Part shown: in pieces, positions 24,635 through 30,205 of the stretch
How positions within the stretch are numbered: position 1 is the first letter of the stretch
Layout: each line of letters opens with the position of its first letter
From: Verrucomicrobiota bacterium
GTDB lineage: Bacteria; Verrucomicrobiota; Verrucomicrobiia; Opitutales; Opitutaceae
DNA: 40,248 bases
Direction of reading: 5' to 3'
NCBI GenBank assembly: GCA_016209255.1
Contig: JACQWL010000591.1
Span: 1 to 40,248, forward strand
Made by a program: the position numbers and the translations under genes
Notes under the pieces: generated by a model
The model's input: only the letters and a program-made list of their open reading frames with translations
What the model was told of the DNA's origin: nothing
Database searches by the model: none

Positions 24635-24714
24635 GCAGTGTCACGTAATACGTGACACTGCCGCACACACCGAGAGGAGAATCCATTCTTAGTGTCACGT
24701 AATACGTGACACTC
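24635..24714. repeat. Two copies of a perfect palindrome with 23-bp core AGTGTCACGTAATACGTGACACT
   Basis: 24635-24663 (29 bp) and 24692-24714 (23 bp), 28 bp apart, upstream of the cupin gene. Confidence 0.95.
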
Positions 24715-24786: not shown

Positions 24787-24879
24787 TCGGTGCCTTCGCT
24801 CCGAGGCGAAAAGATGTTGCCGCGCTGGCCCTGCGAGCGGGCCGGAGTGCGCGCGGCCAGATGGCGCGAAGCTTGCCAC
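24787..24879 (-). pseudogene. Remnant of the C-terminus of an OGG-type DNA glycosylase
   Basis: VASFAPSGRAHSGPLAGPARQHLFASERRHR vs LAQFGRAHFGPLAGLAQQYLFAWERKHR at the end of ORF 26223..27266; stop lost. Confidence 0.7.
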
Positions 24880-24919
24880 GGCGCAGCCATACGCCATCGT
24901 CAACGGCACTCCGTTCCCG

Positions 24920-26222: not shown

Positions 26223-27197
26223 CTACCGGTGCTTTCTTTCCCACGCGAAAAGATACTGCTGGGCGAGTCCGGCGAGCGGGCCGAAGTGCGCGCGGCCAAA
26301 TTGCGCGAGTTGCGCCGGGCGCCAGCCGTCCAGGCCGTACCGCCGCGCCAGCGTTTTCAGAATCCACACGTCCACGGGAAACGCCTCCATCCGGCCCGCC
26401 CCGAAGAGCAGCACGCAGTCGGCGACCTTTTCCCCTACGCCCGGCAGCTCGCAGAGCCGCGCCTTCGCGGCGGCGTAGGGCAGCGTTTCCGTTTCCTCGA
26501 GCCAGCCGGGCCGGGCGGCGAGGAATCGGGCTGTCTCCGCGATGTAGCGCGCGCGGAAACCGAGCCGGCAGGCGCGCAATTCAGGCTCGGGAATCTCTGC
26601 GAGTTCGGGCCACGTCGGCAGCCGGTGGAGTGAAGCTGAAGGCGGAGAGCTGAGAGCTAAGGGCTGAGGGCGGAGAGCGGAGGGCGGAGGGCTGAGAGTT
26701 GAGGGCGGAGAGCGGAGAGCGGAGAGCGGGTTGAGAGTTGAGAGCGGAAGCAGCGGCGCGCCGTGCCGTTCGGCGAGGAGTGCGACGATTTGCTTGATCT
26801 GGACGATCTGCTTCGTCGCGCTGCAGAGGAAGCTGAGCAACGTCTCGCCGAACGGCTGGCGCAAAATGCGCAGCCCGCGAAACTCCGCCAGGCACCGGGC
26901 CAGGTGCGCATCGCTGCGCCACGGCAGGGCGTCGGTCAGGGCGGCGAAATCGCGGTCAACACCGAGATACGTTGTGAGCGCGCTGGCCGTGGCGATCGCG
27001 TTTGTCGCGGGAGCGCTCCATTCGATGCGTCCGTCGGCGTCGAGCCGGAGGCCTACGACAAGATGCGCCCATACCCCGGACCATGTGCCGTCAGGTTCAC
27101 GGTGCCAACGAAAGGCCTGACCGCCATCGAGCGTTTCAGCGAGCACCTCGCCACTGAGTGCCGGCACACCGGCGAGCGGTTGCCAGGAGTCGCTCAA
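26223..27197 (-). CDS. OGG1-type 8-oxoguanine DNA glycosylase / HhH-GPD protein
   Basis: GGQAFRWHREPDGTWSG..., RGLRILRQPFGETLLSFLCSATKQIVQIKQIVALLAERHG, LGFRARYIAETARFL, LCELPGVGEKVADCVLLFGAGRMEAFPVDVWI. TTG start overlapping the upstream stop is proposed. Confidence 0.85.
   Translation of the reverse strand: MSDSWQPLAGVPALSGEVLAETLDGGQAFRWHREPDGTWSGVWAHLVVGLRLDADGRIEWSAPATNAIATASALTTYLGVDRDFAALTDALPWRSDAHLARCLAEFRGLRILRQPFGETLLSFLCSATKQIVQIKQIVALLAERHGAPLLPLSTLNPLSALRSPPSTLSPPPSALRPQPLALSSPPSASLHRLPTWPELAEIPEPELRACRLGFRARYIAETARFLAARPGWLEETETLPYAAAKARLCELPGVGEKVADCVLLFGAGRMEAFPVDVWILKTLARRYGLDGWRPAQLAQFGRAHFGPLAGLAQQYLFAWERKHR
26635..26750. repeat. Degenerate 7-nt tandem array (GCTGAGA/GCGGAGA, ~16 units plus one partial) inside the glycosylase CDS
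   Basis: gctgaag-gcggaga-gctgaga-gctaagg-gctgagg-gcggaga-gcggagg-gcggagg-gctgaga-gttgagg-gcggaga-gcggaga-gcggaga-gcgg-gttgaga-gttgaga-gcggaag. Confidence 0.95.
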
Positions 27198-27415
27198 GAA
27201 ATTTTCGCGCGGGCTTGCCGACGAGAACCGTGTAGCGCATGGAGTTCGCGTTTGACTTCGACCCATGGCTTGAAGTCGCCCTCCAGCATCGCCGCGCGGT
27301 GCGCGACCAAGTCGGCCAGGTTTTCGGCGCGCTGCGCGAGCCGTCGCTGCAAGGCGCGCAGTTGGCGCGGCGTCATGGCGCCAATCGCATGATCGATTTC
27401 GACAACAGTGGGCAT
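27194..27415 (-). CDS. Small hypothetical protein directly upstream of the glycosylase
   Basis: MPTVVEIDHAIGAMTPRQLRALQRRLAQRAENLADLVAHRAAMLEGDFKPWVEVKRELHALHGSRRQARAKIS; ATG start, stop overlaps putative TTG of next gene (TTGA). Confidence 0.5.
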   Translation of the reverse strand: MPTVVEIDHAIGAMTPRQLRALQRRLAQRAENLADLVAHRAAMLEGDFKPWVEVKRELHALHGSRRQARAKIS

Positions 27416-27954: not shown

Positions 27955-28034
27955 GGCGGGAAAGTGAGTGGACCCGCCGCACGGCGCAAGCGAAGGCTCG
28001 TGCCAAGAGATTTCCAAGCCTTTCAAACCTCTGG

Positions 28035-28128
28035 CCCACGGAACATACGGAATACACGGAAGAAGTTTTCCCGCCTCTCGCGGCGCCGACGGCGACCAGG
28101 GTTCCGTGTATTCCGTGGGTTCCGTGGG
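28035..28128. repeat. Hairpin with arms of 9-nt tandem units
   Basis: CCCACGGAACATACGGAATACACGGAA (28035-28061) / TTCCGTGTATTCCGTGGGTTCCGTGGG (28102-28128). Confidence 0.85.
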
Positions 28129-28197
28129 CAATGCGCTCTCTCCGTTCTCCGGCTGCGGGCGCGCCGGGATGTCTACGGCGTTCCGCCGCAACAGGAA

Positions 28198-29832: not shown

Positions 29833-29938
29833 GGCTCAGGGATACCGCGGCTGGCGTTCGAGGCAAAAATCTTTTCGATGAAGTCGATACGGAGGGTGTT
29901 TTCGGAGTTGGGCCTGGTGAGGTTGGGTGGAAAACTTG

Positions 29939-30003
29939 CCCACGAAACACACGAAAAGACGCGAAAGCCAAACGCACTTTCGTGTTTTTGGTGTGTTTCG
30001 TGG
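29939..30003. repeat. Hairpin with short-unit arms (CACGAAA-type)
   Basis: CCCACGAAACACACGAAAAGACGCGAAAG / CTTTCGTGTTTTTGGTGTGTTTCGTGGG. Confidence 0.82.
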
Positions 30004-30205
30004 GGAAAAAATCGTCGGGGCTTGCGAGGACTCTCCAGGATAGCAGTGCAGTGTCGGGAGTCATTTCGGGCTCCGCGTTCTCCGGGCGCTCCGCGTGAAA
30101 ATCTGCCCCAATCATTGTGACAAACATATCGGTCGCCGCGCGAATAGTCAGGCGGATTGACCCCGACAATGGACCGGACGAGCCTGCGGTGTCGGCTTTA
30201 GCTCG

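Follow-up and report, generated by a model that had tools for sequence, protein, structure and literature searches.

The heptanucleotide STRR sequences of cyanobacteria are degenerate tandem arrays that are dispersed in a lineage. They differ in unit and phylum from the element described here, and the likeness is by description only. Heptanucleotides of Calothrix are also mentioned in the available part of PMC4692102. The same part describes GGGAATC arrays in Xanthomonas, which most often hold four units and form convergent pairs. Together with the GGGGAYT arrays of Nostoc these come close to our element: they are degenerate, dispersed heptamers that form convergent inverted pairs and lie for the most part between genes, a minority being within them (PMC4692102, available part). 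Their unit and phylum are different, however, and they are given there as G-quadruplex formers, whereas the unit reported here, GYTGAGR, has no GGG runs. That part of the paper does not mention a protein loop occupied again and again.

Repeats that are read in frame inside genes have been described as well. Rickettsia palindromic elements (RPEs) lie in frame within unrelated protein genes and are tolerated there (PMC10969869); in contrast to tandem heptamers they are palindromic and about 150 bp long, and they belong to another phylum. Many intragenic REPs are found in repair genes, and Opitutus terrae carries GTAG-tagged REPs inside both of its uvrA genes and its DNA ligase (PMC3733652). Single or dimeric GTAG REPs encode about 20–30 residues. 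They resemble our element as small, dispersed repeats that sit in frame in genes, many of them repair genes, within the same bacterial family, but they are palindromic, while the element of the window is a heptamer array without a palindrome. Haemophilus hmw1A has a promoter tract of 13–24 heptanucleotide repeats, and its expression varies with repeat number (PMC8262952). It shares with the present case tandem heptanucleotides in or beside a gene; the window array differs in being degenerate, in lying in a coding loop and in giving no sign of variation.

In-frame intragenic repeats (RPEs, and GTAG REPs in Opitutus uvrA) and paired heptamer arrays (Xanthomonas) are accordingly already known. 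What is new is the GYTGAGR heptamer family itself, and a single loop of an OGG-type glycosylase that is occupied repeatedly by several repeat families, with an empty site for comparison. Heptamers of Verrucomicrobia or Opitutaceae were the subject of no paper in the literature that we searched, although such a paper may exist.

The window, that is, the whole stretch of 40,248 nucleotides that was analysed, is contig C544 of an Opitutaceae genome (G000) assembled to 6.78 Mb in 647 contigs and 85% complete. Its features are collected in Table 1.

Table 1. Features of the glycosylase gene and its heptamer array in the window.
Feature	Position	Strand	Basis or detail
OGG-type 8-oxoguanine DNA glycosylase gene	26223..27266	(-)	intact ORF, 347 aa; Pfam, PDB and Foldseek matches
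OGG_N domain (PF07934), residues 42-143	26838..27143	(-)	Pfam
HhH-GPD domain match (PF00730), residues 216-316, immediately after the loop	26319..26621	(-)	Pfam
Hypervariable protein loop, residues 170-215 (APLLPLSTLN...SLHR)	26622..26759	(-)	homologue alignment; predicted disordered in model
Heptamer array	26635..26750	(+)	13 units in register 26635-26725; GCGG remnant 26726-26729; 3 units 26730-26750
Peptide SPPSTLSPPPSALRPQPLALSSPPSASLHR			predicted translation product of the array
TAG stop inside the array, from unit GCTAAGG	26657..26659	(-)	ends ORF 26657-26911, one alternative frame
Lys280 codon, invariant, catalytic	26427..26429	(-)	homologue comparison
Asp299 codon, invariant, catalytic	26370..26372	(-)	homologue comparison

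The units of the array follow one another as direct tandem repeats, without a palindrome. It comprises 16 seven-base units and a four-base remnant, of the form GYTGAGR/GCGGAGR or, in the sense of the gene, TCTCARC/TCTCCGC. TRF reports a period of 7 and 16.4 copies, starting at 26634/5 and ending at 26750. Sixty dinucleotide-preserving shuffles of the window gave longest chains of 2–3 units, against 13 in the array. Neighbouring units are mostly unlike one another, and identical units follow each other at most three times.

The array is read in frame within the 347-residue ORF of an OGG-type protein, flanked by OGG_N on one side and HhH-GPD on the other (52.2 bits at a cut-off of 23, and 27.3 bits at a cut-off of 26.2). 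An earlier note, made from the letters alone, had proposed just such an in-frame array of about 16 units between intact glycosylase flanks. TRF, the ORF and the shuffles bear out the first part; the Pfam domains, the alignments to PDB structures and the presence of Lys280 and Asp299 confirm the second. The note was wrong to see no stop in the two other minus-strand frames, as the internal TAG closes the frame of ORF 26657–26911. Its idea that the array can be used in different frames thus holds for the frame of ORF 26581–26922, the only alternative minus-strand frame open through the whole array, and fails for the other. On the plus strand TGA is met in every frame, so that the array is open to translation in one orientation only. 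Since 7 leaves a remainder of 1 when divided by 3, arrays of at least three units pass through all three phases in any frame, and a unit that is stop-free on one strand is therefore suited to coding insertion in that orientation.

The protein is of the OGG type, yet it is not an Ogg1 by TIGR00588: the score of 143.9 bits does not reach the curated 397.85, and the matches split around the loop. Alignments to solved OGG structures in the PDB likewise fall into two pieces. The best Foldseek matches are clostridial (3f0z) and mammalian (OGG1) OGG structures. In an AlphaFold2 model built with 35 sequences, pLDDT falls to about 44–55 in the loop core and, the N-terminus and the loop excepted, mostly exceeds 85; the OGG fold is intact in this model and the loop is disordered. 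We take Lys280 and Asp299 to be the equivalents of Lys249 and Asp268 in hOGG1. The whole family has SATKQ at what is presumably the position of the SNNN-like motif of hOGG1, and because of this replacement its base recognition may differ from that of classical OGG1. The nearest named homologues are Opitutaceae and Opitutus MAGs. Pairwise dN/dS of about 0.2 indicates purifying selection on the gene family; being an average, it is not specific to the branch of the window. A remnant of an OGG C-terminus, 33 residues long (FAPSGRAHSGPLAGPARQHLFASERRHR; 24787–24885, minus strand), lies 1.4 kb from the intact gene, shares 61% identity with it and is perhaps a decayed partial duplicate.

How does the loop look in other members of the family? 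Among 92 distinct homologues its length ranges from 4 to 60 residues, most commonly 9 (AEIAPGIHR-like), and in 44 it spans at least 15. Nine rows of the alignment have heptamer-type inserts, the short ones (for example L048, L041 and L151) being assigned to this class by eye. A tree built without the loop requires at least seven changes to explain them, with many of its branches weakly supported. The closest comparison is offered by one clade (L142, L139, L146, L153, L151, L152 and L154) at 79–99% nucleotide identity, in which two members have an empty loop of 9 residues, one has a palindrome there and three have a short heptamer run. The loop has been occupied in frame repeatedly, on separate branches. 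No target-site duplication was seen at the loop, the flanks in this closest filled and empty set being too divergent to define one. Three related genomes whose genes are 97–99% identical do not differ in their number of units, which is short.

The loop also takes up repeats of other kinds. In relative G001 it holds the palindrome pair TAGGGCGGGGTCTCC, which in a looser pattern search has 63 matches within G001 and none in G000; the strict paired pattern was too narrow and returned one place in one genome. Further inverted repeats fill the loop of L198, L161, L165 and L157. GTAG stands at the start of the inserts of L040, L139 and L165, which resemble REPs.

The window array belongs to a heptamer family that is dispersed through its genome. 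Pattern searches of G000 find arrays of at least three units at some 20 other places. At three mismatches these searches gave 51 and 46 hits against 25 and 24 in the control; weak entries of the census may be chance, and reliance is placed on arrays with at least three good units. Beyond G000, 20 of 60 relatives have the family, and these 20 belong to one family-level group. Four units are the commonest size in three of these relatives (27 of 36, 15 of 17 and 9 of 10 arrays). Where neighbouring arrays oppose each other, the order is always GTTGAGA and then TCTCAAC (34 versus 0). Such inverted pairs are convergent and often intergenic, with cores that differ from place to place. The dispersal and the convergent pairing are shared with the arrays of Xanthomonas and Nostoc, and the usual size of four units with those of Xanthomonas. 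The left arm of a complete pair contains TGA, and a complete pair can therefore not be read through. Inside genes, single arms of the family are seen, with TCTCAAC/TCTCAGC in the sense strand. The window array is such a solo arm, and its 16 units exceed every other array seen in G000.

In two relatives (G014 and G006; L089–L107) convergent pairs of four-unit arrays with variable cores of 35–90 bp lie between genes without an attached known enzyme. One core is common to G006 and G008 at 75–80% identity, judged by eye, which suggests vertical inheritance. Mobilization by a Y1 transposase, as for REP/REPIN elements moved by RAYT, was considered and rejected: the array is not palindromic, and no heptamer unit pair was found at 30 Y1 loci from nine genomes, each covered to about 1.5 kb on either side.

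Other genes of G000 carry arrays in frame too, namely UvrA, a flavodoxin domain, an FtsJ-type methyltransferase gene, FecR, an ImuB-like gene and a small number of further genes. Repair genes seem to be over-represented among the carriers. Where an array stands at the start of an ORF, as in IlvC and some others, it may be leader DNA. Two arrays (C49 and C267) consist of units without TGA and are read in the opposite sense. The ImuB-like gene is broken across the ends of contigs C7 (L086) and C121 (L013), which overlap by 100 and 121 nt. Its array has 8 units on one end and 5 on the other, a difference of 21 nt that leaves both in frame, along with point differences; we infer that the two versions are alleles within the sampled population. 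The ImuB linker has a second repeat, GATTACGAGCACGAGTAA.

In UvrA, the array of G000 is placed between the ABC signature and Walker B. A UvrA loop has TCTCAAC arrays in G013 and G016, a palindrome in G001 and short forms in G017, G020 and G022; in G004 and G008 it holds inverted pairs of the heptamer-like GGAGTTT/AAACTCC, which are stop-free on both strands. This UvrA loop follows the same pattern as the OGG loop. A second site of insertion did not emerge clearly from a search of UvrA orthologues. Heptamer-like families of the AACTCCA and AGAACTC types also occur in the UvrA loop of L231, L233, L235 and L236, as inverted pairs in L233 and L236.

What brought the array into the glycosylase, and what does it do there? 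We regard it as very probable that dispersed repeats insert recurrently into a permissive OGG loop, and that the array is tolerated in an enzyme that is likely functional and constitutive, with no switch. The array would be one member of the Opitutaceae family GYTGAGR/GCGGAGR, of which a single arm landed in the loop in the orientation with a stop-free sense strand (TCTCARC/TCTCCGC). It would have been retained because the loop accepts extra low-complexity residues while selection keeps the frame open, and would afterwards have grown longer and decayed to 16 non-identical units, with arrays changing length in steps that keep the frame. The loop itself would be a recurrent landing spot at which heptamers and unrelated palindromic, REP-like repeats arrive independently across species. 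That the repeat tolerates coding insertion, as the earlier note put forward, is supported by the in-frame arrays in other genes of G000 and by the diverse length and origin of the loop inserts. We infer that the glycosylase is active, that the array originated by insertion rather than by slippage growth from a short seed in place, and that copies move. Growth in place, in which slippage expands short pyrimidine-rich seeds and the loop accepts any sequence, seems unlikely to us. It would account for the lack of target-site duplications at the loop and of a linked transposase at the 30 Y1 loci, and slippage is the usual proposed origin of short tandem repeats (PMC4692102, available part); yet one unit recurs across many loci and species with a mode of four and in ordered inverted pairs, and palindromes that are not tandem fill the same loop. 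It is a live rival for the heptamers, not for the palindromes.

The earlier note had further proposed that unit slippage could switch the glycosylase on or off. With slippage by single units, such a switch would produce a reversible mutator state. This is formally possible, given that 7 cannot be divided by 3: in silico, loss of one unit leaves 200 residues, gain of one 230 and loss of two 223, and a change of three keeps the frame. Phase-variable loci have long tracts of identical units, though, and the run here is three within a degenerate array that is not conserved among relatives, no second genome with this array having been found; a known variable heptanucleotide tract, that of hmw1A, has its 13–24 units in a promoter. 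The near-identical relatives agree in their short unit number, and the sole length variant found, in ImuB, preserves the frame. Switching is thus unsupported, and we rate it as highly improbable. The glycosylase with its array most likely stays functional and constitutive; the pairwise dN/dS leaves room for a loss of function that may have occurred recently on the window's own branch. A selected role for the long proline- and serine-rich loop, for instance in partner binding and with an incidental heptamer origin, would fit the many homologues with long loops; the inserts are wholly different in sequence and origin between species, however, and the shortest, most widespread form has 9 residues, which makes such a role very unlikely. 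An assembly or binning artefact could be suspected in so fragmented and incomplete an assembly, in which another array of the family sits at contig ends (C7/C121). Against this, the frame and both conserved flanks are intact across a contiguous gene, and inserts at this site recur in homologues whose records are named separately; the chance of an artefact is minimal.

The OGG family can be read as a natural insertion-scanning experiment: a single enzyme loop accepts unrelated repeats time and again while the remaining protein is conserved. This shows a route from repeat DNA to protein sequence and flags loops that tolerate insertion. It also adds a second repeat class to the REPs reported in repair genes, including those of Opitutus, so that a preference for repair genes becomes testable. 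A bolder and rather doubtful extension would be that heptamer hairpins and several palindromic families of Opitutaceae disperse with a preference for repair-gene loops (OGG, UvrA, ImuB), where a unit stop-free on one strand would make each arm an in-frame linker, and that the repair proteins of this lineage are steadily remodelled.

Other repeats lie close to the glycosylase gene. The palindrome AGTGTCACGTAATACGTGACACT occurs twice, at 24637–24659 and 24691–24713, the copies being 54 bp apart. The genome has about 80 matches to its core, which are often spaced at 54–55 bp and at C580 number as many as five in succession; a relative of the palindrome, TTTGTCACTTAATAAGTGACAAA, is found inside the OGG loop of L161. 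Two more inverted-repeat pairs, CCCACGGAACATACGGAATACACGGAA/TTCCGTGTATTCCGTGGG at 28034–28129 and TTGCCCACGAAACACACGAAAA/TTTTGGTGTGTTTCGTGGGGAA at 29936–30007, probably represent other dispersed families.
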